IMG/VR virus record: IMGVR_UViG_3300031227_000102 | Span: 1 to 44,389 of that record | DNA from: a virus | DNA: 44,389 nt | Strand: one strand, 5' to 3' | Part shown: one piece after another, positions 3,551 through 44,329 of the stretch | How the letters are laid out: the number at the start of each line of letters is the position of its first letter | Numbering within the stretch: the stretch's first letter is position 1 | Made by a program: the position numbers and the translations under genes | The notes under the pieces: model-generated | Told to the model about the DNA's origin: nothing | The model's database searches: none | The model's input: only the letters and a program-made list of their open reading frames with translations

Positions 3551-4801
3551 CTAGACTCTTCCCTGCATCTTTTCCACCTGCTCCCGCGCAATGCTGGGCA
3601 GGTCGTTCGCTACGGTATCGACGGCCGACATGGCCGCCTTTTTCATTTCGTCGTTGATCTGTTCCGGCAGTCGGTAACTCAACGAATCTTCTTCCGCGAT
3701 CACCCTGCGCGTGCCAGGGCCAGGACGATCCACTCTGCGCATCTCGCCCCCGCACTTCGGGCACTTGATGTCCTTGCAGTGCTTCTTGCTGCTCATCTTG
3801 TGGTTGCATTTGATACAGGAGCAGGCGTACTTGGTAGCCTTCCCCTCTTCAGGGTCGCCCGTATCCACATCCGTCGGTTCGTCGGTGTTTTCGGGCTCTA
3901 CAGCCGGATCTGAGACAGGGGCTACCGGGGCGACAGGTGCAACAAGTTCTACCGGCACATCCGGCGCGACGGGTTCGGCGGGTTCGGCGGGCTCAACAGG
4001 CGCCACAAGTGCCGGGGGTGTGGCGGGTACGACGGGCGGAACATCTTCGGGTATCTTCATGGCTGGTCCTTCCGGTATTACTAACCCCATTTCGTCCAGG
4101 ATGATTTGCGGTACGCTCAACCCCTTCGCTCGCATCTTCCCCACCTGCACAGTGACGGCATCGGGGTTGGATTGGATAGGAGCAACCGCGTACTCGAGCC
4201 CCACCCAGTTGCGGATGATGTAACCAACCTCCGCGAACCTCGGATCGGCACGTACGTCGGCCTCCGTCGGGCGTCCCATCTTCGTAGGAATGAAGCCGAT
4301 GCTCTTGCCCTTCATCCCATCCTTGACAAATGCGTAGACTGCATCGGGGAACCAACTGCCGACCCAGTCGTCGGGCACGCCCTTGTAAATGGTCTTGGCC
4401 AGCCATCCGTTCATAGGCGTCTTCACGCGCTTCACCCATGCAGCTCTCCCCACCGGAAGCTCGTTGTACTTGTGTGCGAACGTAACCGGACCGCCCCCCT
4501 TCTGGAAGCTGGCCCAATCGGCGCCCTGAGGCAGCACCACTTCCTTGTCGCGGTCAACGGAGTCGGTGGTGATCAACGAAATGTCCGCTCTTTCCCCTTC
4601 CACCAATTCAAACTTCTCAGGGGTAGCCCTCACACGGATGATCCCGTTCTCGCCGCGCAGCTCGACCAACGACCGGCAGTCTTCGTCCAGGTTCTTCAGA
4701 ATCGCTTCAATGTCGGTCGCCACCTTCGAGTGCATGGGAAAGCCCAGCGGCCCTTCTGCGTCCCCATACATCTTCCTGATTTTGTCAACGCTTGCAGGCA
4801 T
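3551..4801 (-). CDS. Prohead protease (HK97/U35 type) with C-terminal zinc ribbon
   Basis: A 416-residue protein. Residues about 70-220 match the caudovirus prohead serine protease: SLITTDSVDRDKEVV, VTFAHKYNELPVGRA with the likely catalytic His110, then KDGMKGKSIGFIP with Ser167, and LEYAVAPIQSNPDA. It should cut scaffold and the capsid N-terminus inside the prohead. After about residue 250 it becomes unusual: a Pro/Ala/Val repeat linker (about 254-300), an acidic stretch, and a Cys cluster (C327, C329, C332, C347, C350 in CSCIKCNHK and CPKCGG) like a zinc ribbon, followed by a basic, helical tail. U35 proteases usually end soon after the catalytic domain, so this tail may act as the scaffold. 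It sits directly before the capsid gene. Confidence 0.9.
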   Translation of the reverse strand: MPASVDKIRKMYGDAEGPLGFPMHSKVATDIEAILKNLDEDCRSLVELRGENGIIRVRATPEKFELVEGERADISLITTDSVDRDKEVVLPQGADWASFQKGGGPVTFAHKYNELPVGRAAWVKRVKTPMNGWLAKTIYKGVPDDWVGSWFPDAVYAFVKDGMKGKSIGFIPTKMGRPTEADVRADPRFAEVGYIIRNWVGLEYAVAPIQSNPDAVTVQVGKMRAKGLSVPQIILDEMGLVIPEGPAMKIPEDVPPVVPATPPALVAPVEPAEPAEPVAPDVPVELVAPVAPVAPVSDPAVEPENTDEPTDVDTGDPEEGKATKYACSCIKCNHKMSSKKHCKDIKCPKCGGEMRRVDRPGPGTRRVIAEEDSLSYRLPEQINDEMKKAAMSAVDTVANDLPSIAREQVEKMQGRV

Positions 4802-29958: not shown

Positions 29959-30906
29959 CTACTTCCTCTTGCCGCCCTTCTTGACGACCTTCTTCGTGGT
30001 CTTCTTCGCAACGGTCTTCGTGGTTTTCTTCGCTGCCTTCTTCGTGGCCTTCTTGATGACCTTCTTCGCTGCGGGCTTCGCTACGAACTCGACGCCCGTG
30101 GCTGTGAGGAGTGCGGCTTCATCTGCGGTGATCTCAGCTTCCTTCCACTCGTACTCGTTGAGAGCTTCGATCACTGCTTCCTTGCCCATCTCGTCGGTGA
30201 CGCTCTCCACTCCCTGAGCCGAAGCAAAGGCCAACAGGCCTACCAGCTCTGCATCCTCTTCCTCGGCCGACAACTCTGACAGGGGCACGGCATACACCTC
30301 GCCGTCCACATCCACGTGTGCCTCTTCCTCACCTTCGTCGATCTGGGTGATCTGGCCGGCGTACTCGTTGCCGTCGTCGTCCGAGAACGACGCTACGTCC
30401 CCAACACTCCAGCCTTCCTCAGCACCTTCGGCACCTTCGGCGGCCTCGGCGGTCGGTTCTGCACCCTCGCCCGCATCGTCAGCGGTGGTGGTCATCTCGG
30501 CTTCCTCCTGGAGCAGTTCGTCCACGTTGGCGTTGGTGAAGTCCCCGCTCTTCGTAACCTCGGCCGAGTAGATCGGGTTGGCATCGCTCATGGCCGACAG
30601 GACCTCTTCCAGGTCGGACATATCGTCCGGCACATCGTAACCCATCTGGCGGATCCACTTCGCTGCGTAGAACGGCCCCTTGTCGGTTTCGAGCATCATG
30701 TTATCGCGGACGACCTCACCCTGGTACTCCCCTTCCACCACCAGGTGCTCCCGAACGATCATCAGCTTCTTGCTGCTCTTCGATTCGCGCACCTTCGCGC
30801 TCTGGAGTTGCATGGTGTACGAAGCTCCCGGGACTCCCGGAGCCGAATCCTTGCCAGTCGCCCACGCCTTCTGCATGCCGTTCAACCGCTTCTTGAACTC
30901 TCCCAC
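29959..30906 (-). CDS. DUF669-like ssDNA-binding protein with histone H1-like tail
   Basis: A 315-residue protein. Residues about 1-135 look like the phage DUF669/SSB-type OB fold: YTMQLQSAKVRESKSSKKLM, IVREHLVVEGEYQGEVVRDN and FYAAKWIRQMGYDVPDDMSD. A second module, EEGWSVGDVASFSDDDGNEY, then AGQITQIDEGEEEAHVDVDG, is Tudor/SH3-like. Last is a Lys/Ala/Thr tail (AAKKVIKKATKKAAKKTTKT and so on to KKGGKRK) like histone H1. Acidic Glu/Ala repeats link the parts. It starts with GTG and GGAGG upstream. Its place beside the recombination ATPase suggests that it coats ssDNA. Bacterial SSBs end in an acidic tip, so a basic tail is unusual. Confidence 0.6.
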   Translation of the reverse strand: MGEFKKRLNGMQKAWATGKDSAPGVPGASYTMQLQSAKVRESKSSKKLMIVREHLVVEGEYQGEVVRDNMMLETDKGPFYAAKWIRQMGYDVPDDMSDLEEVLSAMSDANPIYSAEVTKSGDFTNANVDELLQEEAEMTTTADDAGEGAEPTAEAAEGAEGAEEGWSVGDVASFSDDDGNEYAGQITQIDEGEEEAHVDVDGEVYAVPLSELSAEEEDAELVGLLAFASAQGVESVTDEMGKEAVIEALNEYEWKEAEITADEAALLTATGVEFVAKPAAKKVIKKATKKAAKKTTKTVAKKTTKKVVKKGGKRK

Positions 30907-33044: not shown

Positions 33045-33248
33045 CTCGTACACGGCTTTCCACTCCTCCCGCTCTTTGCGATACCCCTCCAAAATCTCAC
33101 GCCTCGTTTTAGTACTGGCGCCGTGCTTGCCATCCAGCTGTTCCTGTGTGCAACCTCTGAACAAGCTCTCCGCTCGCTCAAGGGCGTCGCTACGTGCAGC
33201 CTTCACGATACTCAACAGCTTCATCTTTACAACGTCCACCTTCGCCAT
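33027..33248 (-). CDS. Small helical protein
   Basis: A 73-residue helical protein from ATG 33248: MKLLSIVKAARSDALERAES then TKTRREILEGYRKEREEWKA. The start is shared with the UDG stop as TGATG in the repeated start module. Its 3' end lies in the 11-bp tandem repeat. No family is recognised. Confidence 0.55.
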   Translation of the reverse strand: MAKVDVVKMKLLSIVKAARSDALERAESLFRGCTQEQLDGKHGASTKTRREILEGYRKEREEWKAVYEFVKSL

Positions 33249-33258
33249 CACGACCTCC
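33237..33258 (-). repeat. Duplicated start module, copy 2
   Basis: Second copy of the 22-base unit at 32988-33009. Here it lies over the UDG stop and the start of the 33027-33248 gene. Confidence 0.75.
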
Positions 33259-33835
33259 CAATTTTTCTAACCCTCTTCAAGCTCTCGAACACATGCGCCA
33301 GCCCACGGACGAACGTACGGAACTCTGTACTCTCCCTCCCACCCAGCCGCAACAAGTACGCCGGGTGCCTGAGGCATGCAGCTCCAGGCCACATGGGCAG
33401 GCAATACTTCTCGGGGATCTTCCCCAACAGGATCACACGTTGGGGGTGTGTCTCCACGTAGATCTTTTCGAGGTTTGGGCGACACGCCCATGCTTCCTCC
33501 CCTGTCGGTTGACGATTGGGGCCGTCCTTTGAATCGCATGGGCGACAACGCACTACGTTGGAGATGTAGAAGGTAGGCATACGCTTTCGGCCTGACAGCT
33601 TGCGTGCCACCTCCATCGCGTTGTCGAGAAGGCGACCGCTCGGACCGACGAATGCTTTGCCCAGCATATCCTCGCTCCTCCCCGGACCCTCCCCGACGAA
33701 AAGCAAGTCGGCGGGCATGACCCCCCGTCCGATCACCTCACGTTTACGGGTCCCCGCAAGCCCGCACCCCCTGCATCCTGACCCCACGTCGCTCCCCCCT
33801 GTCGTGGGACCCCGTTTACCCCTCAGCTTGCGCAT
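33248..33835 (-). CDS. Uracil-DNA glycosylase, family 4-like
   Basis: About 195 residues from ATG 33835, chosen because GGAGG lies 6 nt upstream; an earlier GTG (33889) has no such site. Motif 1 is LLFVGEGPGRSEDMLGKAFV, followed by GPSGRLLDNA, YISNVVRCRP, RQPTGEEAWACRPNLEKIY, RVILLGK and the motif 2 equivalent LRHPAYLLR. Four Cys (21, 24, 97 and about 118) fit the family's 4Fe-4S cluster. It removes uracil from DNA, leaving abasic sites for repair. A uracil-removing enzyme implies that the phage DNA has thymine rather than uracil. The C-terminus carries the basic tag LKRVRKIGRS. Confidence 0.85.
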   Translation of the reverse strand: MRKLRGKRGPTTGGSDVGSGCRGCGLAGTRKREVIGRGVMPADLLFVGEGPGRSEDMLGKAFVGPSGRLLDNAMEVARKLSGRKRMPTFYISNVVRCRPCDSKDGPNRQPTGEEAWACRPNLEKIYVETHPQRVILLGKIPEKYCLPMWPGAACLRHPAYLLRLGGRESTEFRTFVRGLAHVFESLKRVRKIGRS

Positions 33836-33852
33836 GCCTAACCTCCGCACGT

Positions 33853-34104
33853 TCAAGGGCTTACGCATGGGCACACGAGCGTAAGCCACGTAATTACGTC
33901 ACATAAGCATAGGTGCTCTGTGAGGCGCGACCCCCCGTCCCCTTGACGCACGAGGCGGGAAACGTCATTGCGTACCCCCTGTACCCCGTTTGGCGTACCC
34001 CCTGTATCCCCCTGCAATCGGGGTGACCCCCCACGGGAGCCCTTTACGACGCAAGGCTCCACATCTGCCCCCTGCGCACCCCTGCACCTCCCCTTGCTCG
34101 TCAC
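33853..34104 (-). CDS. Possible Gly/Cys-rich small protein
   Basis: An 83-residue ORF from a GTG overlapping the resolvase stop as GTGA, ending 18 nt before the UDG start. Gly-rich with Cys (KGRCRGAQGADVEPCVVKGS ... CLCDVITWLTLVCPCVSP). Another frame in the same place is also open, so coding is uncertain. It contains two copies of a TACAGGGGGTACGC unit about 26 bp apart (about 33984-34024) and the 12-bp palindrome ACGTAATTACGT (33888-33899). If not coding, this is a 265-bp intergenic region that could hold a promoter. Confidence 0.4.
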   Translation of the reverse strand: MTSKGRCRGAQGADVEPCVVKGSRGGSPRLQGDTGGTPNGVQGVRNDVSRLVRQGDGGSRLTEHLCLCDVITWLTLVCPCVSP

Positions 34105-36366: not shown

Positions 36367-37248
36367 CTAGCTCACCAGTGACAAGAACTCAGCACGGACC
36401 TGCGCCGTTGTACGCATGGCCCCCAGCATGCAGCTTGTTACCATCTCAGCCTCGGGCTGCCGTACACCACGGCATCCCATGCACTGGTGATGGGCCCTAA
36501 CGACAACGCCCACACCTTGCGGCTTCAGTGCGTCTTCGATTGCGTTGGCTATCTGACTGGTCATTCTTTCCTGCACCTGCAACCGCTTCGCAAACGTTTG
36601 CACCACCCGTGCCAGCTTGCTCAGCCCCACCACCTTCTCGTTTGGAAGATACCCCACCGACACCTCCCCGGCAAACGGTAGGATATGATGTTCGCACAGC
36701 GAGGTGAAGTGAATGCCGTGCAGGATGACCATCTCCTTGGTGTCGATGTCGAAGACTGTTGACAGGATCTCGCGCGGGTCCTGCGTGTACCCGGCGCACA
36801 TTTCGTCCAATGCCTTCAGCACGCGCTGAGGCGTACGCTGTAGCCCGTCCCGCAATGGGTCCTCCCCGATGTACTCGAGGATTCGGACTACCGCGTCAGT
36901 AGGTCCGCGTACCCCCTCCTCATCGTCCCACGGGAAGTGCACCCAAGGAAGCGCCGCGTCCTGCTGCGAATCCTGCTTGTTGACGAGCGCGTAGAAGGGT
37001 GTGCCAGGGAACTCTTCCGCGTACCGGGCACGGGTAAGCCCGCTATCGATGATGTCGTCCACGAAGAAGTCTGCCTCCGACGGGTCCTCCACCGGCATCT
37101 CCTTGCACATCGCCGCAACGATTGTCCCACCACGTGGAACCCCGTACGGCCTACCGCTCGTTGGGGTCGCCCTACACCCTCTCTCGTGCACCTCCTCCCA
37201 GGTCATCGGGTAGATATTATTTTTTGGATCTGAACACTCAGTCGCCAT
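36367..37248 (-). CDS. folE: Phosphoribosyltransferase-GTP cyclohydrolase I fusion
   Basis: A 293-residue fusion. Residues 1-110 are a PRTase-like domain: PYGVPRGGTIVAAMC (36-49) and FFVDDIIDSGLTRARY (61-76), the PRPP-binding motif. Residues 115-293 are GTP cyclohydrolase I: EDPLRDGLQRTPQRVLKALD, TSLCEHHILPFAGEVSVGYL (zinc Cys185 and His187-188), QERMTSQIANAIEDAL and VRAHHQCMGCRG (Cys256). FolE turns GTP into dihydroneopterin triphosphate, the first step towards preQ0. The other steps are encoded next door. The role of the PRTase is unknown; it may salvage purine for GTP or act on 7-deazaguanine. It overlaps queE by 46 bp. Confidence 0.88.
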   Translation of the reverse strand: MATECSDPKNNIYPMTWEEVHERGCRATPTSGRPYGVPRGGTIVAAMCKEMPVEDPSEADFFVDDIIDSGLTRARYAEEFPGTPFYALVNKQDSQQDAALPWVHFPWDDEEGVRGPTDAVVRILEYIGEDPLRDGLQRTPQRVLKALDEMCAGYTQDPREILSTVFDIDTKEMVILHGIHFTSLCEHHILPFAGEVSVGYLPNEKVVGLSKLARVVQTFAKRLQVQERMTSQIANAIEDALKPQGVGVVVRAHHQCMGCRGVRQPEAEMVTSCMLGAMRTTAQVRAEFLSLVS

Positions 37249-37790
37249 GTCGGGTTCTCCTTCACGTACTGCAACGCCGGGGCAAAGTTTTCGCTACACG
37301 GTTGAATCCATTGGTGCTGAAACGCCCCGCTCCCCAGAATCTTTGCGGGGTCCACCCCTGGAGCAAGCACTACCTTGATCTCGTTGCCCCAGTAGTACCC
37401 GGTGCTGTGGGGCTCCTTGGGGCTGACCGTTATCCAGCTTACGACGTTGGTGGGTATGGTGTCGAGGCGAGTCCCGTTTGTTTCTAACGCCACGTACCAT
37501 TTGTTCCTCGTCAGTAGTTTGCACAGCGGAGCGAGGTCGTGGATCGTCGGCTCCCCACCGGTGAGCACAACCATTGGCTCCCCTAGCTCGGCTGCGGACT
37601 TCGTCGGCCACAGGTCGTAGCATTGCTCCAGCAGGGCGTTCTCCGTATATGATACCTTCTCACTGTAATCCGTATCGCACCACGAGCATGAACGATTGCA
37701 CCCCGCCAGGCGAATGAACACTGCCGGACGCCCGGTCCAGTACCCTTCCCCTTGCACGGAATAGAAGACTTCGTTCACCGGGTATATCAT
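37203..37790 (-). CDS. queE: 7-carboxy-7-deazaguanine synthase (radical SAM)
   Basis: A 195-residue radical SAM enzyme that converts 6-carboxytetrahydropterin to 7-carboxy-7-deazaguanine. NEVFYSVQGEGYWTGRPAVF, then IRLAGCNRSCSWCDTDYSEK, contains the QueE-specific C-x3-C-x2-C cluster; VVLTGGEPTIHDLAPLCKLL is the SAM-binding GGEP motif and VALETNGTRLD the following strand. The length is normal. It sits between the queD and folE genes. Confidence 0.93.
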   Translation of the reverse strand: MIYPVNEVFYSVQGEGYWTGRPAVFIRLAGCNRSCSWCDTDYSEKVSYTENALLEQCYDLWPTKSAAELGEPMVVLTGGEPTIHDLAPLCKLLTRNKWYVALETNGTRLDTIPTNVVSWITVSPKEPHSTGYYWGNEIKVVLAPGVDPAKILGSGAFQHQWIQPCSENFAPALQYVKENPTWRLSVQIQKIISTR

Positions 37791-38146
37791 CTCGTGTACT
37801 CCGCCACGTTCCCCTCACTCTCCTGCACCTCCACTCGCTTGCATCTCGGGCCAAGCTTGTCGGCGATCCACTTGGCGATGTTCTCGGCGGTGGGGTTGAG
37901 GGCTGTGCCTAGATCAACCTCCAGCACCTGGTTGATGTCGTCGTGGTCAAGCTGCATCACTACTTCCTTGATCTCTGCGAAGTCCATTACCATCCCGCTC
38001 ACGTTTAAATGGTTTGCTTCACAGGTCACAGTGATGATCCAGTTGTGCCCGTGCACCGCTGCGCACTTGCTCGGGTACGGGAGCGTCAGGTGGTGGGACC
38101 CGGATACCTCGATGCGTTTCGTCACCGTCCATTTAGACATGGGCAT
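37787..38146 (-). CDS. queD: 6-carboxy-tetrahydropterin synthase
   Basis: A 119-residue enzyme from ATG 38146, with GAGG 6 nt upstream; the longer frame is inside queC. CAAVHGHNWIITVT carries the zinc-binding His pair and catalytic Cys, SGSHHLTLP the first zinc His, VMDFAEIKEVVMQLDHDDIN the conserved Asp-His, NPTAENIAKWI and VEVQESEGNVAEYTR the pterin Glu. It converts dihydroneopterin triphosphate to 6-carboxytetrahydropterin. Confidence 0.92.
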   Translation of the reverse strand: MPMSKWTVTKRIEVSGSHHLTLPYPSKCAAVHGHNWIITVTCEANHLNVSGMVMDFAEIKEVVMQLDHDDINQVLEVDLGTALNPTAENIAKWIADKLGPRCKRVEVQESEGNVAEYTR

Positions 38147-38795
38147 CTGCCACCTCGCCCACTGTCTTCGGAGCAACCACTCCGACCTCTTTGCAAGCCT
38201 CGGTGATCTGAATGCAGTGCAGGCACTCCCCACACCGGTAGTTGCTGCGACCGTTGTAGCACGACCATAGCTCGTGAATGTTGACGTCTTGCGTGAGCAG
38301 GTACGAGATCAACTCAGCACGTGTCCACGGGGAGCCGCCGTATCCGTGGTGAAGAATCATATTGAACTTGATTCTCGGAGCCCCATCCTCTGCGGCGTGG
38401 TGTGTGACGGCTTCGATCTTGTTGAAGAACTCGCGTCGGCAGTCTTTGAACACGTCCGACTCCTTGCTCCCCACCACCACCCAGTCACAGTCCATCGCCG
38501 TTGCGTAGTTTGCGGAGAGCGCGGCGAAGACCATGTTGCGGAGAGGAACGTAGTAGTCCTTTACGTTACCGGTACCTTGCAGGGACATCCCTGTACTGAT
38601 CCTGCGCACTCCCTGATACTTCGGGTTGTCGGTAACCAGGTGGTGCATGTAGCTTACCGCCCGCAACTCCTGCTCCAGGTACGGTTGCCCGTAGTCAAAG
38701 AACACGGCGAAGACTTCGTCGTATTTCTCCAACGCCATCAGAAGGGCCGCGCTGCTATCCATCCCACCACTCAATTGAACGACTGCTCTCTTCAT
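38133..38795 (-). CDS. queC: 7-cyano-7-deazaguanine synthase
   Basis: A 220-residue ATP-dependent enzyme that converts 7-carboxy-7-deazaguanine to preQ0. VQLSGGMDSSAALLMAL is the PP-loop, YVPLRNMVFAALSANYA the conserved ATP-site motif, and SCYNGRSNYRCGECLHCIQ the zinc Cys cluster. There is no fused glutamine amidotransferase domain, and no QueF is seen, so the expected end product here is preQ0. It overlaps queD. Confidence 0.93.
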   Translation of the reverse strand: MKRAVVQLSGGMDSSAALLMALEKYDEVFAVFFDYGQPYLEQELRAVSYMHHLVTDNPKYQGVRRISTGMSLQGTGNVKDYYVPLRNMVFAALSANYATAMDCDWVVVGSKESDVFKDCRREFFNKIEAVTHHAAEDGAPRIKFNMILHHGYGGSPWTRAELISYLLTQDVNIHELWSCYNGRSNYRCGECLHCIQITEACKEVGVVAPKTVGEVADAHV

Positions 38796-39661
38796 TTCTT
38801 CATCCTCCGAATCTTCTTAGGTGCCTTGCGTATCGGTACACGCTTCTTCACCGCGCCCGGGAGCTCCTGCATTGCAGTCTCCCACCTGCGTCTTGCCGCA
38901 GCTTCAATCTTCCTGAAGTGCTCAAGCTCCGAACGGATGTTGTTACCCCCACCAGTGATATGGAACTCCGCGTCATTGAAGCTGGGCCAGCGACCAAACT
39001 TGCTCGGGCGTAGTTCCCACGTGGTCGAATCGACGGAGTGGAAGGGCAGGGCCATCAGGACTTCCTCCTGCGACGACCCGAACCCGTGAATCTTTTGCGG
39101 CCACACCCTGGCGAAGACTTGTGCGGCCCATTCGATTTTCTTCTTGCCGGGCAACAGCTTCATCCCCCCCAGTCCGATCTTGTCATAGTTCTTGGCCAGG
39201 TTGATCAATGCGCTCTCGGGCTCTCCGATGTGGTAGGTGGGGATTGCAGGGACGCCGGCCTTCCACATCTTCTCGGTGTTCTTCAACGTCAGCCTAGCCC
39301 CCTCCTTGTGCCTGACTCCCGTACCCCGTCCACCGATAACATCCAGCGCGTAGATTTCGATTAGCTCGGGATCGTTCGCCATCAGGAACTTGCATGTGTC
39401 GATGTACTCGTCAATGTCAATCGTCTTGCCGATGTTGAACGCGCTGAACGCCCCGCTGTCCAACACCCATCCCCTCAAAACATAGTCGTGCCTCTTGCGG
39501 TATGACAGGAAGCTCTTGAGGTAGACAAAGGACATCAGGATCACCGGAGCGCTGCTCTGCGGGATCCTCTTCACTCCGCGCAGCCCTGCCAGGCAGTTCT
39601 TACCTTGCGCCGTAGGCGCGTGGGCCAGGTATATGGTCGGCGCCCCGTCGATTGCCTTCAC
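38792..39661 (-). CDS. dpdA: DpdA-like 7-deazaguanine DNA transglycosylase (TGT fold)
   Basis: A 289-residue TGT-like protein from a GTG (39659-39661) coupled to the ParB-like stop, with GAGGAAGAAGAG upstream. GWVLDSGAFSAFNIG (Asp68, likely nucleophile or base), IEIYALDVIGG (Asp107), PTYHIGEP, KIGLGGMKLLPG, KIHGFGSSQEEVL and HSVDSTTWELR match the barrel motifs of phage DpdA proteins, which swap guanine in DNA for preQ0. All precursors are made by the adjacent genes. The C-terminus is the basic tag KAPKKIRRMKK. It could in principle act on tRNA, but the phage setting favours DNA. Confidence 0.82.
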   Translation of the reverse strand: MKAIDGAPTIYLAHAPTAQGKNCLAGLRGVKRIPQSSAPVILMSFVYLKSFLSYRKRHDYVLRGWVLDSGAFSAFNIGKTIDIDEYIDTCKFLMANDPELIEIYALDVIGGRGTGVRHKEGARLTLKNTEKMWKAGVPAIPTYHIGEPESALINLAKNYDKIGLGGMKLLPGKKKIEWAAQVFARVWPQKIHGFGSSQEEVLMALPFHSVDSTTWELRPSKFGRWPSFNDAEFHITGGGNNIRSELEHFRKIEAAARRRWETAMQELPGAVKKRVPIRKAPKKIRRMKK

Positions 39662-40329
39662 CTCTTCTTCCTCTGCGGAGGGGTCTTCTTCCTCTTGCGG
39701 CCCACAGCACACTCCGCCAACTTTACTGCGGCCTCCTCGAAGCCATCGCCGTGGGTGATCAACCCAAGCTTCTCCCCATCCTCGCAGCACTGCGCCAGGC
39801 GTGCCCACTGCTCTGGAAGGAACCGTATGGACTTGCCTGTCTCGCCAGACTCCTCGGATGTCGGCAGCTTCCCCACCGTGTCCGGTGACCACTTCGCTTG
39901 CATCAACGGTTCCCGCTCGAAGTCCGCAAAGCCCGTCGCCTCGAGATCAAACTCCTTCCCGTCAAGAAACTTGATCAGCTCCGACACCGTTTGAAAATCA
40001 AACTCGCTGGTGTCACTGGTCTTGTTGTCAGCCAGCGCGTACGCCAGCTCTTGTTCCGTCGTGAGGTTCAGGCAGCGTACGATCTGGATGTCCTTCCACT
40101 TCAGACCCCGCGCAGCTTGCAACGTTCCGCACCCTTTGAGCACTCGGTTGTTCTTGCCCACCACGATAGGCGTCCTCTGGCCGAACGTCTCGAGGCTCTT
40201 GGAGATGGCTGAGATGTTCCGCTCGTCGTGCAGCCTTGCGTTCTTCGGGTGTGGCTTGATTGTCTTGACAGGTACCATCTCGATCTTGAGCTTGTCTTTC
40301 TTGGCCTTGATCTTTTTGAGTACGGGCAT
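39658..40329 (-). CDS. ParB/Srx-like protein in the 7-deazaguanine cluster
   Basis: A 223-residue protein. Residues 15-105 are a ParB-N domain: EMVPVKTIKPHPKNARLHDE, ISAISKSLETFGQRTPIVVG, NNRVLKGCGTLQAARGLKW and LTTEQELAYALADNKTSD. The GCGT segment corresponds to the 'G.gR..A...lg' nucleotide-binding patch but has Cys-Gly instead of Gly-Glu-x-Arg. Both ends are basic (MPVLKKIKAKKDKLKIE and RKRKKTPPQRKKR). Its GTGA coupling to dpdA suggests a DNA-binding partner of the transglycosylase, a guess from position. Confidence 0.8.
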   Translation of the reverse strand: MPVLKKIKAKKDKLKIEMVPVKTIKPHPKNARLHDERNISAISKSLETFGQRTPIVVGKNNRVLKGCGTLQAARGLKWKDIQIVRCLNLTTEQELAYALADNKTSDTSEFDFQTVSELIKFLDGKEFDLEATGFADFEREPLMQAKWSPDTVGKLPTSEESGETGKSIRFLPEQWARLAQCCEDGEKLGLITHGDGFEEAAVKLAECAVGRKRKKTPPQRKKR

Positions 40330-40330
40330 T

Positions 40331-40555
40331 CTATCCTCCGTGTCCGTATACCGATTCGGCTACATGAATGAACAGCGATCCGTTCCAGGATTGGATTGAC
40401 CCCTGCAGTACGTTGACGAACCAGTCCCGACCACACACCGGGCAGGTAGCCCTGTCAGGCAGGTACGGTCCTTTATGAATCTCGAAGAACCCCAACTGCG
40501 CCTTGCAGCCGGGGCATCGAATGCGCACTGCATTCGCCTCTGCTTGCGTGCTCAT
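40331..40555 (-). CDS. Zinc-ribbon protein, first gene of the 7-deazaguanine operon
   Basis: A 74-residue protein from ATG 40555 (MSTQAEANAVRIR) after the structured leader. VRIRCPGCKAQLGFF and RATCPVCGRDWFV make a classic zinc ribbon. Function unknown. It may be a DNA-binding or regulatory part of the cluster. Confidence 0.65.
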   Translation of the reverse strand: MSTQAEANAVRIRCPGCKAQLGFFEIHKGPYLPDRATCPVCGRDWFVNVLQGSIQSWNGSLFIHVAESVYGHGG

Positions 40556-40570
40556 GGTCATCCTCCTAAC

Positions 40571-40738: not shown

Positions 40739-41884
40739 TTATTTGGTTACCTTCTTGACGAGCTTCTTCTTCGGCGGCGCCTTCTTGACTATCTTCTTGA
40801 CGACCTTCTTGGCCGCAACCTTTTTGATGGGCTTGACCTTCTTGGTGATCTTCTTCGTGGTCTTCTTCACGGCCTTGGCCTTCTTCGTTGCCTTGGCCTT
40901 GGGCGGGTTCTTCTCTTCGTACTTCTTGGCGAACGCTTTGATCTCGGCCTTCTGTGCGCCCGTCAATTTCGCGCACCACTTTTTCCCGGCCTTCCCCTTC
41001 AGGATTCCGATTGCGATGGTGGCATCCTTGACGGGGACCTTCTTGCTGTCCATGTACGCCCGCGCTGCTTCCTTGCTCATGCCGTCCCGACCCATCGCCC
41101 GCAGTACTGCGGTAACCGGCTGCTCGAAGATCGAGATGCGCCCCTTGCTCGTGTGGGCCTTCTTCACTGCCTTCACTGCCTTCACTGCTTTCACTGCCTT
41201 CGCCTTCTTGGTAGCCATGTCCTTCTCTCCTTTTCTCTGTCCAAAGACTTTTCTTAGGACTGCACTATTCTTCTGACGTTCTTCCTTCTCCACTGACAAG
41301 CGGAGACGAATGATCTCACCCAAGGTACCGACTAACTTTTCACTTGAGAACTCTTTCGCTGCGGCGTAGTTCGTCAGCCACTCGTGCGATGGAACTGTAC
41401 CAGCGTGGTGGTACATCCTCCTCTCCAAATCCATTTGCGTGTGCAGAGCAGTCATCCGCGGGTGCGCATTGCCTGGCGGGCGTTGATTGAACACCAGGCG
41501 ATAACATTCGTCGAGGTACACCCGAAGAGCCCTGTCACCCTTCTTCACCTGTGTACAGTAATACCAGTAGCTGTTGTTGAACGTCCACAGCGCCTTGCTT
41601 GCCAGCATGGTCTCTTCGCTGCGCGTCTCTTGATGCTGCCCAATCTGCCCGCGAGCCCCGAACAGCTTTACCCTAGTGTCCTCCGCCATGGAATCGGTGA
41701 TGGCGCTTGCCACTACCACACTCTCAACAGATCCGGGTGGGAGGGAGGGTGGCTTGGCGTACACCACCCTCTTCACCCGTTTGATCTTCTTGATCTTCTT
41801 AAGCTTCCGGATCTTCTTGACCTGCGGTTTGACCTTGCGCACCTTCTTCTTGGCTTTGCGCTGTGTGTCAATCCGGCGTGCCAT
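40739..41884 (-). CDS. Lys-rich histone-like protein (two parts)
   Basis: A 381-residue ORF. The N-terminus is a basic repeat (KKKVRKVKPQVKKIRKLKKI then KKIKRVKRVVYAKP). A globular region (about 50-215: LASKALWTFNNSYWYYCTQV, YLDECYRLVFNQ, LVGTLGEIIRLRLSVEKEE) follows. From residue 223 a new module begins with KKAKAVKAVKAVKAVKKAH, a folded middle (ISIFEQPVTAVLRAMGRDGM, SKEAARAYMDSKKVPVKDAT) and a long H1-like tail (KATKKAKAVKKTTKKITKKV...LVKKVTK). An internal ATG at 41218 with AAAGGAGAGAAGG could express the second part alone (159 residues). It may coat or compact phage DNA. Confidence 0.65.
   Translation of the reverse strand: MARRIDTQRKAKKKVRKVKPQVKKIRKLKKIKKIKRVKRVVYAKPPSLPPGSVESVVVASAITDSMAEDTRVKLFGARGQIGQHQETRSEETMLASKALWTFNNSYWYYCTQVKKGDRALRVYLDECYRLVFNQRPPGNAHPRMTALHTQMDLERRMYHHAGTVPSHEWLTNYAAAKEFSSEKLVGTLGEIIRLRLSVEKEERQKNSAVLRKVFGQRKGEKDMATKKAKAVKAVKAVKAVKKAHTSKGRISIFEQPVTAVLRAMGRDGMSKEAARAYMDSKKVPVKDATIAIGILKGKAGKKWCAKLTGAQKAEIKAFAKKYEEKNPPKAKATKKAKAVKKTTKKITKKVKPIKKVAAKKVVKKIVKKAPPKKKLVKKVTK
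41216..41235 (-). promoter_or_regulatory. Internal ribosome binding site within the histone-like ORF
   Basis: On the minus strand AAAAGGAGAGAAGGAC precedes an in-frame ATG (41218). The purine-rich match is as good as that of any gene in the window and the module starting there (MATKKAKAV) looks like an independent small basic protein. Confidence 0.5.
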
Positions 41885-41961: not shown

Positions 41962-42783
41962 CTACGTGGATGCCAGTGCCTTTTTCAGTTGCTTTTCCAA
42001 CCGGAACAGCCTGCCGTCCATCTGCTTCGACAACAGCCTGGTCATCTCGTGGTAGATCGTTCCGCGGTCCTTCAGTTTCTTAACGCGACCCATCCGCACC
42101 TTCAGCGACCGCTTCTCCCCTCCCTCCTTGATCATCTCTTTGACCTCGGCTTCGAGATCGTCGAGAACCGTCAAGGCTTCAGCTTCAAATGCGCGGTGAA
42201 CCGTTCCTCGGGCTTCCGTCTGGTTGGGGACCACCAACGTCTCGAGCGGCACCCCTACCTTTGCCAGGAACGCTTGCACCTTGTCGACCACGGCTTCCCA
42301 TTTTCTGGGAACGAAGTACACCGCTCCGTTGCGCCTGAGGGGCAGCAGGTCTTCAGCCTCGTTCTTGAACACCCGCTTGACGATGTTCCGGATGTCTTTG
42401 GTCCGAAGCATATTGCACGAGATTGCGTAGAGCTCCTGGAGCTTCGCTTTGATCTTCGGGTTGTCGGTACTAATCAACCCGCTCTTCTTGTCGAGGCTGA
42501 TCTGCGCTTCGTATGCGTACTGGAGTTTGCTCTTGCTCAGGAACTCGCTGGTGAATTGGTACACCACCGTCTCCTTGCTCTCACTGACGCGGCGCATGAT
42601 TCTGTCCTCTTCCATCGCCCTCGCTGCACGAATGAACGCATTCCGGGAGCGAGGCTCTCGAGCGTACTTCTCCGGTAGTCCACATGCTGCGAGGTGCCTC
42701 CGCAGATCTGTCACCGAGACGCGTACGTTCTTGAGCGTCCACCAAATCACCTGCCCCAGTTGTGCCGGTTGTTTTGTTGTCAT
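41962..42783 (-). CDS. Conserved hypothetical, neighbour of the VWA protein
   Basis: About 273 residues from ATG 42783 (MTTKQPAQLGQVIWWTLKN). The first 80 residues look helical and DNA-binding-like (RVSVTDLRRHLAACGLPEKY, SRNAFIRAARAMEEDRIMRR). The middle holds KWEAVVDKVQAFLAKVGVPL, and the end is a charged coiled coil (HRAFEAEALTVLDDLEAEVK). The layout is like phage proteins that occur beside VWA or MoxR genes, but I cannot name a family with confidence. Confidence 0.6.
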   Translation of the reverse strand: MTTKQPAQLGQVIWWTLKNVRVSVTDLRRHLAACGLPEKYAREPRSRNAFIRAARAMEEDRIMRRVSESKETVVYQFTSEFLSKSKLQYAYEAQISLDKKSGLISTDNPKIKAKLQELYAISCNMLRTKDIRNIVKRVFKNEAEDLLPLRRNGAVYFVPRKWEAVVDKVQAFLAKVGVPLETLVVPNQTEARGTVHRAFEAEALTVLDDLEAEVKEMIKEGGEKRSLKVRMGRVKKLKDRGTIYHEMTRLLSKQMDGRLFRLEKQLKKALAST

Positions 42784-42796
42784 CCCAATCTTCCTC

Positions 42797-44329
42797 TCAC
42801 AACGAGTATACCGACTCGAGAACCTTGTCGTCCTTGAGGACGTCATTCAGGTTCACTACAGTATCGCTGAACTGCTCCAACGTGCTCTTGCCACCGTACC
42901 CGTAACTGTACCCTCCTTCGTCGATCTGAACCGAGATGCATTTGAACGCCAGCTCCGTCTTGCTCTGGTGGTACTTCTTCAGGAAGCTTGCGTCCACCGA
43001 GCACTGGCCGTCTGTGACGAATACGATGTCCGCCTTGTTCATCTTCGCATCTTCGCGGATGATCTTCAACGCTCTGTTGAGCGCTGCTTGGAAGTCGGTG
43101 CCGCCCCCTCCCTGGAACTCCAGCAGTCCGTCAAGCAGCTCCCCGTAGTTGGTCGGGTCAAACTTGTATGAATTCACCGACCGGCTGTCGGAAAAGTTTA
43201 CGATTGCGAACGTCCTCCGCTGCTTCTTTGCAATCGTGAGGAGCCCTAGCGCAAACGCCTTCGCCCACACGATACGGTCCCCGCTCATGCTCCCACTGTT
43301 GTCAACGCACACCACCAACGGCCCGCGTCCCTCCTTCTCCATTCCATCTAGCTTGTACTGCAGCAGCTCCCCGTCGCAGAACTTGCGCATGAACTGCGTC
43401 TCGAGTTCTGGGTCGCTGAGGAGCATCAGCTCGCTGGGCAGTACCCGTCCCAGGTCGCTCCCTCGCTCGATGTCTACGACCTCCTCCACCGCATGCTTCG
43501 TCTTGGTCTCCTGGGTGTGCAGTGCTATGCGGGTGAACCTCCCCGCCTTCTCCGCGATCTGCCTGAGCATATCGTTGAATTGAATCTTCTGCATTACCTC
43601 TAGCTTGTCCTTCAACGATATCTCACGCATGGACCCCGGCTCGGACATGAAGCCGTCGCAGAATGAATCCGCCCGCTCGATCTCCTTCTTGGCCTCTTGG
43701 CACGCACCGCGTACCGCCTGCCTGATCTCACCCTTCTTTTTCTGCATCATCTCTTGAAGGGTCTGCTTGGCCTTCTTCTTTTCCCTCCGTGCCTCACGCG
43801 CCTTGTTGATTGCGTCGCCGCGCTGCTTCTTCTGCTCCTCGGTCTGACCGGCACTGCCCCCACCGGCCTGCCGAGCATCGTGCATCTCCTTGAGCATTTC
43901 CTTGCAGGCGTTCTGCTTGCTGCTCTCGTCTTGTACCTTCTTGGCCTCCTTCTCAATCTCCGGTGGGATCGCCTCGCGGATCTTCTCGCCAGCGCCAGTA
44001 GTTCCTATCGCTGACGCGAACTCGTCCAGCATCGTACGTTTGCGTAGCTCGTGCCAGTCCGCAAGCTTCTCAGCCTCATCCATCACTGCTCGTTGGAACT
44101 CCAGGTTGTCGGGCACCTCCTCGATCCGCTTCGGGCGTGGCTTGTAGAGGCCGGCATAAATGTCTTGCATCGCCCTCTCCCACTCGAACCCCTCAGCCTT
44201 CTCCCACTTGCTGATCTCCTGTAACTTAGATGACTTGTCAAGCAGGCGCTTGAAGGCCCGAGCGTCGTACTTGTCCTGCTGCACGACCTGTGCCGGGATC
44301 GGAGCGTCGATTGGTGGGGGCAGCATCAT
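42797..44329 (-). CDS. VWA domain protein, ViaA/CoxE-like
   Basis: A 510-residue protein. The first 300 residues are helical and charged (EEQKKQRGDAINKAREARRE, MQKIQFNDMLRQIAEKAGRF). The VWA domain then starts at RGPLVVCVDNSGSMSGDRIV with the MIDAS DxSxS (Asp343, Ser345, Ser347), Thr411 in GGGGTDFQAALNRA and Asp440 in DIVFVTDGQCS, a complete metal site. CVDNSGSMSG...WAKAFALGLLTIA is very like ViaA, which works with the MoxR-type AAA ATPase RavA. No MoxR ATPase is in this window; it may lie to the right. Such pairs act as chaperone-like or metal-insertion systems. The start overlaps the upstream stop as ATGA. Confidence 0.82.
   Translation of the reverse strand: MMLPPPIDAPIPAQVVQQDKYDARAFKRLLDKSSKLQEISKWEKAEGFEWERAMQDIYAGLYKPRPKRIEEVPDNLEFQRAVMDEAEKLADWHELRKRTMLDEFASAIGTTGAGEKIREAIPPEIEKEAKKVQDESSKQNACKEMLKEMHDARQAGGGSAGQTEEQKKQRGDAINKAREARREKKKAKQTLQEMMQKKKGEIRQAVRGACQEAKKEIERADSFCDGFMSEPGSMREISLKDKLEVMQKIQFNDMLRQIAEKAGRFTRIALHTQETKTKHAVEEVVDIERGSDLGRVLPSELMLLSDPELETQFMRKFCDGELLQYKLDGMEKEGRGPLVVCVDNSGSMSGDRIVWAKAFALGLLTIAKKQRRTFAIVNFSDSRSVNSYKFDPTNYGELLDGLLEFQGGGGTDFQAALNRALKIIREDAKMNKADIVFVTDGQCSVDASFLKKYHQSKTELAFKCISVQIDEGGYSYGYGGKSTLEQFSDTVVNLNDVLKDDKVLESVYSL

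Follow-up and report, generated by a model that had tools for sequence, protein, structure and literature searches.

Do the queuosine-pathway genes of the uncultured bacterial virus of record IMGVR_UViG_3300031227_000102 serve to modify the phage's own DNA or the tRNA of its host? The window, i.e. the whole stretch of 44,389 nucleotides analyzed here, carries between positions 36367 and 40329 six genes on the minus strand which encode a ParB-like protein, DpdA, QueC, QueD, QueE and FolE. The ends of these genes overlap or abut. The six genes are one tightly, translationally coupled operon; the first-pass annotation had already placed them in one operon. The following features were assigned.

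36367-37248, minus strand: FolE gene, whole phosphoribosyltransferase (PRT)-FolE fusion (Pfam FolE, E=3e-70)
36367-36900, minus strand: FolE domain, GTP cyclohydrolase I, residues ~117-293 of the fusion (Pfam, 3e-70; Foldseek; Zn ligands)
36901-37248, minus strand: PRTase-like (XGPRT-type) domain, N-terminal part of the FolE polypeptide (PHROG 8995; XGPRT profile; motifs)
37203-37790, minus strand: QueE, 7-carboxy-7-deazaguanine synthase, radical SAM, CxxxCxxC (NCBIfam TIGR04508, 1.3e-33, below the curated cut-off of that model; PHROG 2076, 1e-35)
37787-38140, minus strand: QueD, 6-carboxytetrahydropterin synthase (Pfam PTPS, 3e-26; Cys/His ligands)
38133-38795, minus strand: QueC, preQ0 synthase (Pfam QueC, 6e-31; motif check)
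38792-39661, minus strand: DpdA, DNA-guanine transglycosylase, GTG start (PHROG 887, E=1.1e-30; 7ui4; bacterial DpdA by hhalign)
39658-40329, minus strand: ParB-like protein, 223 aa, proposed DNA-loading partner of DpdA (PHROG 620, E=7e-37; 7bnk; AF2/Foldseek)
40331-40561, minus strand: small zinc-ribbon protein upstream of the ParB-like gene, same direction (weak zinc-ribbon matches only)

The last of these features lies just outside the range of the six genes. It had been put forward as a possible new member of the system. A CxxC..CxxC reading frame upstream of ParB was found in 5 of 47 ParB-DpdA loci, and these were of differing kinds. Because of this lack of conservation the zinc ribbon was rejected as a component.

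The preQ0 pathway and the target of DpdA

A motif check revealed intact catalytic residues and metal ligands in every enzyme of the operon. QueC contains the SGGxDS motif and four zinc-binding cysteines and carries no fused amidotransferase domain. The Cys and His ligands of QueD are present (its start is at 38140 or 38146), and the three cysteines of QueE are 100% conserved. The FolE domain matched 1wm9 in Foldseek with an E-value of 6e-24 and an rmsd of 1.2, and its zinc-binding Cys and His residues are conserved. The complete preQ0 route of FolE, QueD, QueE and QueC together with DpdA, read earlier from the letters, was thus recovered by family matches with all active sites intact.

The absence of QueF and of an amidotransferase had also been noted. 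Family searches of the 44 kb for QueF, a class-II amidotransferase (GATase_7) and the preQ0 transporter YhhQ found none of them. The single QueF match was the FolE domain itself, which has the same fold, and was discarded. The gene set therefore corresponds to the second group of phage preQ0 DNA-modification systems of Hutinet 2019, with DpdA, FolE, QueD, QueE and QueC and without amidotransferase or QueF, in a 44-kb record that may be a fragment.

The best PHROG of DpdA, PHROG 887, is labelled "queuine tRNA-ribosyltransferase", and a TGT-superfamily enzyme in one operon with queuosine-pathway genes could also point to modification of queuosine in host tRNA instead of phage DNA. However, the DpdA profile matched the DNA-guanine transglycosylase 7ui4 (E=7e-4) and bacterial DpdA (hhalign probability 96%, E=5.5e-9), and no tRNA TGT was matched in PDB or Pfam. 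The catalytic Asp residues are 99-100% conserved in about 175 relatives and both are present in this DpdA. A grouping with the tRNA enzymes or missing Asp residues had been named as evidence against the DNA assignment; DpdA sides with the DNA enzymes on both counts. The lack of QueF in the 44 kb also speaks against a tRNA function, as does the fact that QueA and QueG were not seen among the annotated genes. On the DpdA profile matches the tRNA function was rejected, and we consider it extremely improbable.

DpdA would accordingly be expected to exchange guanine in the phage DNA for preQ0, and such dPreQ0-modified DNA would be poorly cut by many restriction enzymes. Judged by the published phages, the modification would almost certainly serve to hide the virus from bacterial DNA-cutting enzymes. 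We infer dPreQ0 as the product from Rosebush and CAjan: virion DNA of Rosebush contains dPreQ0 at ~28% of G with dADG negligible or in traces, and CAjan loses the base when dpdA is deleted (PMC6884629). In the gene-order comparison Rosebush (AY129334, NC_004684) was represented by Mycobacterium phage Arbiter, which is filed in the species Rosebushvirus rosebush. Arbiter shows the order ParB-like, DpdA, QueC, QueD, QueE, FolE found here, which by analogy backs the earlier prediction of preQ0 itself as the base. A further derivative such as ADG, formed by a phage or host enzyme that escaped recognition, appears improbable. Salmonella phage 7-11 does contain dADG without a recognised enzyme (PMC6884629), several genes of the 44-kb stretch have no family match and the record may be incomplete; but in the Rosebush species, which has the same operon, dADG accompanies dPreQ0 only in traces, and neither QueF nor GATase was found here. 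Taken as a whole, with enzyme identities from sequence and the product by comparison, we put the probability that the operon is a phage system for modifying DNA with dPreQ0 at about 0.85.

The same gene order also occurs in Arthrobacter phage Sonali, where ParB is annotated within the six-gene queuosine cluster, and in Mycobacterium phage Saguaro. Since isolated phages share the order and the dPreQ0 of Rosebush is published, the pathway itself is not new. The surroundings differ: in Arbiter the operon adjoins the terminase, whereas here it follows DUF6744, VWA and Lys-rich genes, and Sonali has a separate DpdA-like gene (gp81) upstream of the cluster. The clusters of the Queuovirinae (CAjan; Nipunavirus; VpKK5) likewise combine DpdA with FolE, QueC, QueD and QueE; unlike here, their DpdA lies beside a DnaN-type sliding clamp and a polymerase, with no ParB. 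Another copy of a known pathway is of modest interest, and the weight lies on this division between ParB and clamp and on the fusion of a PRTase to FolE. The PRT-FolE and ParB-DpdA associations are established by sequence comparison; the roles given below to the DNA-clamp-like partner and to the fused domain, which resembles those of guanine recycling, are proposals.

A phosphoribosyltransferase-like domain fused to FolE

The first ~112 residues of FolE form a separate phosphoribosyltransferase-like domain, which was missed in the first-pass annotation and for which no description was found in the literature searched. Its family profile matched XGPRT structures in the PDB with E-values of 4e-5 to 3e-4, and the AF2 pLDDT is mostly >90. 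Because the FolE domain dominates the fold search (only FolE structures were among the matches listed by Foldseek for the fused protein), the domain was assigned from its sequence profile, its motifs and the secondary structure predicted for it. It contains PRGG and DDxxDSGxT motifs and shares with XGPRT/Gpt the PRPP loop, the pyrophosphate loop and the base-binding Lys and Trp. Catalytic and base-site residues are 91-100% conserved in 106-109 relatives (Lys 92%, Trp 100%). It differs from XGPRT in its fusion to FolE and in being ~22 residues shorter between the two key motifs, a gap which leaves it without the full-length XGPRT-type fold including the flexible loop.

The PRT domain travels with the pathway: of 109 such domains, 106 are either joined to FolE in one protein or encoded next to it, and for 102 DpdA is found within 8 kb. 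A PRT-FolE as found here is encoded by the Queuovirinae Quinobequin-P09 and VpKK5 and, in a cluster of related type, by Stenotrophomonas phage ply2008005c. In contrast, the annotated FolE genes of Arbiter (576 bp) and Sonali (669 bp) are too short for the fusion.

The most likely role, although we give it slightly less than even odds, is the recycling of guanine. The domain would convert the free guanine released by DpdA at each exchange to GMP, and thence GTP, feeding the pathway. The shortening relative to XGPRT means that the domain could instead be inactive or regulatory. As a PRPP- or purine-nucleotide-binding regulatory domain it would tune FolE to the purine supply; the reduced spacing between PRGG and DDxxD, mostly 20-31 residues among the relatives, would fit such a function, and there are precedents for the control of FolE by an added partner, e.g. 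the GFRP complexes among the fold matches. Conservation of the PRPP and pyrophosphate loops and of the base-site Lys and Trp speaks for an enzyme, and a domain that only senses PRPP could do without residues for purine binding. Apparently, regulation is the rather unlikely alternative to salvage. The fusion bears on how the phage supplies enough GTP.

The ParB-like protein and two kinds of phage DpdA

The ParB-like protein consists of a ParB N-terminal nucleotide-binding domain and a helical, basic C-terminal tail; examined for DNA-binding and dimerisation domains and for clamp closure, this tail showed only helices, at lower AF2 confidence. Its family profile matched the ParB structure 7bnk with an E-value of 1e-15, and the AF2 model (pLDDT 85.6) retrieved ParB and Noc in Foldseek. 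In the survey of gene neighbourhoods that had been suggested, ParB adjoined DpdA across one large clade of the DpdA tree (63 ParB against 99 non-ParB rows), with 4 changes in adjacency compared to a mean of 50 after shuffling. The earlier proposal of ParB as a new member of the system is therefore strongly supported as to its link to DpdA, though the link is not entirely new: annotations of mycobacteriophages and Arthrobacter phages already include the gene, and for phage CRB2 a dpdB role was suggested for the ParB gene (PMC6392294).

The ParB-like protein is probably a working partner of DpdA. As a dedicated accessory it would load DpdA onto DNA or power the exchange with nucleotide energy, a role like that of the ParB-superfamily ATPase DpdB for bacterial DpdA. 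DpdB is a ParB-like ATPase required for insertion, as described in PMC12839542. The bacterial Dpd system (dpdA-dpdB, dADG) contains a homologous DpdA with an adjacent ParB-superfamily gene as in this phage, and the analogy of position holds. DpdB is, however, a 375-aa DGQHR protein that is not detectably related to phage ParB, and DpdC or restriction genes were not seen in this operon. Orthology with DpdB was not supported: no DpdB-named NCBIfam model matched, and hhalign gave a probability of 3% against seven bacterial DpdBs.

Other observations also run counter to a role of ParB in modification. The Arg of the GxxR motif, found in 81% of the phage ParB family, is replaced by Thr69 in the window (Thr in 17% of the family), and phage 9g DpdA was assayed in plasmids without a ParB partner (PMC6884629), although the 9g-like phages fit the clamp-linked kind described below. 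The protein might also be a general DNA-binding or regulatory protein of the phage, co-inherited with the cassette. ParB-domain proteins are common in phages, often beside methyltransferases, and the annotation of Arbiter calls its copy a transcriptional regulator; moreover, the link to DpdA tracks phylogeny with few changes and could be a frozen neighbourhood. Yet the adjacency, mostly at <600 bp, is kept across a very divergent clade, in metagenomes and in actinobacteriophages, with ParB on either side of DpdA and variable gene order around it. We therefore favor the partner of DpdA and regard co-inheritance as unlikely.

Whole records were searched for both proteins with positive controls. 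The phage sliding clamp DnaN was present in 0 of 22 ParB-type phages, and among 29 clamp-type phages DnaN occurred in 28 and this ParB in none. Phage DpdA splits into ParB-linked and clamp-linked kinds which do not overlap in the records tested. An independent-contrast test of ParB against DnaN was not significant, with too few state changes, so that a single ancient split could account for the complementarity. We tentatively propose, as an idea with perhaps more against it than for it, that phage DpdA needs a DNA clamp, either DnaN or, in DnaN-less phages such as this one, a ParB-type nucleotide-dependent clamp, and that many of these phages recycle the guanine expelled by DpdA into preQ0 via PRT-FolE. 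The two kinds bear on how DpdA gains access to roughly one third of the guanines in a genome and processes them. Cultured mycobacteriophages, Arthrobacter phages and Pseudomonas phages with the same parts make the proposal testable.

The preQ0 operon and its predicted product

The 44,389-base virus record carries terminase, portal, major head protein, PolA-type polymerase, primase, helicase, Sak4, resolvase and sigma-factor-like genes. Because of this terminase, portal, head and replication gene set, it was taken for a tailed phage, either whole or in large part. The first-pass annotation had placed FolE, QueE, QueD, QueC, DpdA and a ParB-like protein in one minus-strand operon. Gene mapping confirmed this arrangement, with gene ends that overlap or abut.

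36367-40329, minus strand: six-gene operon, transcribed in the order ParB-like, DpdA, QueC, QueD, QueE, FolE
39661, minus strand: GTG start of DpdA, overlapping the ParB stop
40331-40561: small zinc-ribbon gene, directly upstream of the operon

The idea that the zinc ribbon belongs to the system found no support. Directly upstream of it lies a gene for a protein with a lysine-rich tail (40739-41884), histone-H1-like or a Lys/Ala repeat; a second such protein is encoded at 29959-30906. A DUF6744 protein and a VWA-domain protein (41962-44329) are encoded upstream of the operon on the same strand, and a uracil-DNA glycosylase superfamily protein (33248-33889; Pfam UDG, 2e-22) in the same replication region.

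FolE, QueC, QueD and QueE gave clear family matches in Pfam, PHROGs and NCBIfam. In NCBIfam, the QueC, QueE and QueD matches scored under the equivalog thresholds, as divergent phage proteins would be expected to. The window QueC retains all four zinc-binding cysteines; in approximately 35% of the aligned fetched phage QueC proteins zinc-binding cysteines are replaced by Ser, Thr, Asn, Asp or Ala. DpdA showed no match in Pfam or NCBIfam and matched the phage "queuine tRNA-ribosyltransferase" family of PHROGs (1e-30). The proposed check of DpdA against DNA and tRNA enzymes favored the former. A profile of seven phage DpdAs matched a single relevant structure among those solved, that of the DNA-guanine transglycosylase (7ui4), and none of the tRNA-guanine transglycosylase structures; profile comparison with bacterial DpdA gave a probability of 96%. 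The catalytic Asp positions (LDSGAF, SVDS) are 99-100% conserved in approximately 175 relatives and both are kept in the window DpdA. The reported lack of QueF and amidotransferase was likewise borne out: elsewhere in the record, searches for QueF, a class-II amidotransferase domain and the YhhQ transporter came up empty, the sole QueF match being the FolE domain itself.

The annotations of Arthrobacter phage Sonali, Mycobacterium phage Saguaro and Arbiter show these six genes in the same order. The first reading of FolE, QueD, QueE, QueC and DpdA as the preQ0 pathway proved correct, and the pathway is of an ordinary kind. In Sonali the ParB-DpdA operon has, approximately 1.8 kb upstream of its ParB gene, a second gene annotated as DpdA-like tRNA-guanine transglycosylase (3993-4610). 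Arbiter is filed under the species Rosebushvirus rosebush. Its first gene (gene 1), which bears the annotation transcriptional regulator, is matched both by the phage ParB profile and by the ParB of phage Cracklewink. Virion DNA of Rosebush carries dPreQ0 at a level of approximately 28% of G, and none is present in CAjan lacking dpdA (PMC6884629). From the operon match in Arbiter and these base data, dPreQ0 is the predicted product in the window. FolE, QueD, QueE and QueC, identified by sequence, would convert GTP to preQ0 by chemistry established for these families, and DpdA, by homology to related phages where this is established, would exchange preQ0 into DNA. Judging from published phages, the modified DNA would be protected from restriction.

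ParB and the sliding clamp

For the locus survey, 80 loci selected by the phosphoribosyltransferase (PRT) domain of FolE and 80 by DpdA were fetched from IMG/VR and their surrounding genes mapped. A same-strand ParB was present within 2 kb in 66 of 177 DpdA stretches, in 48 of these 66 upstream within 600 bp. The ParB label, carried by 63 rows and lacking in 99, required 4 changes on a DpdA tree of 167 rows, compared to an average of 50 for shuffled labels. The earlier lead that ParB is a possible member of the system holds up and has gained considerable support. The window DpdA belongs to a 25-row branch (support 97) in which every row is ParB-linked. The number of origins is uncertain, given weakly supported deep nodes and the meeting of several long branches. 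In five loci (L107, L094, L116, L119, L070) dpdA occurs twice, as a gene or a fragment, and the pair often follows ParB in tandem; the two may differ in site specificity or be copies with frameshifts.

The phage protein truly belongs to the ParB-domain proteins (profile match to 7bnk, E=1e-15; fold matches to ParB and Noc). In work on phage CRB2 the gene that opens such a cluster was already proposed as dpdB homologue (PMC6392294), and PMC12839542 describes bacterial DpdB as a ParB-like ATPase required for insertion. The phage ParB occupies the same position as bacterial DpdB and may work like it; this analogy and the association suggest that it would assist DpdA. We did not file it as DpdB, since profile comparison with seven bacterial DpdBs gave a probability of only 3%.

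A DnaN-type sliding clamp was encoded directly downstream of ParB-less DpdA in 89 of 100 cases with enough flank, and of ParB-linked DpdA in 0 of 60. Whole records, many of them fragments, were sampled from the two DpdA groups. DnaN was found in 0/22 ParB-type and 28/29 clamp-type records and the phage ParB family in 22/22 and 0/29, respectively, with each profile acting as the positive control in the opposite set. In chromosome segregation, ParB proteins act as DNA clamps, which suggests that DpdA would need a partner resembling a clamp, either ParB or DnaN. The same pattern would also arise from one ancient divergence between phage lineages, and an independent-pairs test of ParB versus DnaN, with too few state changes, did not reach significance. 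Together with the PRT-FolE fusion, the ParB/clamp split is the part worth following.

The PRT domain of FolE

Residues 1-112 of the window FolE protein form a separate domain with a confident predicted structure (pLDDT 93.9). In the PDB, a profile of this domain from five relatives matched xanthine-guanine phosphoribosyltransferases (4e-5 to 3e-4). The pyrophosphate loop, the PRPP loop and the base-site residues Lys (92%) and Trp (100%) are conserved, whereas approximately 22 residues fewer than in XGPRT separate the first two motifs. Fusion to FolE or direct adjacency to it was seen for 106 of 109 PRT domains, and for 102 a DpdA gene lies no more than 8 kb away; the remainder comprise five cut contigs, one weak second match and, as the only clear exception, locus L086. 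The fusion occurs in 24 ParB and 69 non-ParB loci and was gained or lost 25 times on the FolE tree, at least 8 of these changes being forced by well supported branches. Quinobequin-P09, VpKK5 and others carry PRT-FolE without annotation as such, and none of the papers searched names both the PRT domain and DpdA.

Each DpdA exchange frees one guanine, and one GTP is used per preQ0 made. The loop would therefore be closed by a guanine phosphoribosyltransferase attached to FolE, and our preferred reading is that the PRT domain would recycle the guanine released by DpdA.

Variant operons in relatives

A GT4-type glycosyltransferase was present in 7 of 21 DpdA/QueD/QueE/FolE operons without QueC and in 1 of 109 with QueC, a count partly seeded from those same loci. 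In the fetched loci (L-numbers) it was located as follows.

L036:5318-6475, GT4-type glycosyltransferase
L042:5581-6603, GT4-type glycosyltransferase
L017:3428-4438, GT4-type glycosyltransferase
L075:2073-3044, GT4-type glycosyltransferase
L080:5830-6945, GT4-type glycosyltransferase
L010:7009-7956, GT4-type glycosyltransferase
L069:9202-10365, GT4-type glycosyltransferase

Its occurrence in QueC-less operons suggests glycosylated 7-carboxy-7-deazaguanine as their base. In locus L002, whose DpdA is 49% identical to that of the window, a putative asparagine-synthetase-like class-II amidotransferase, recognized by eye, lies between QueC and QueD (L002:3679-4935) and suggests a further-modified base there.
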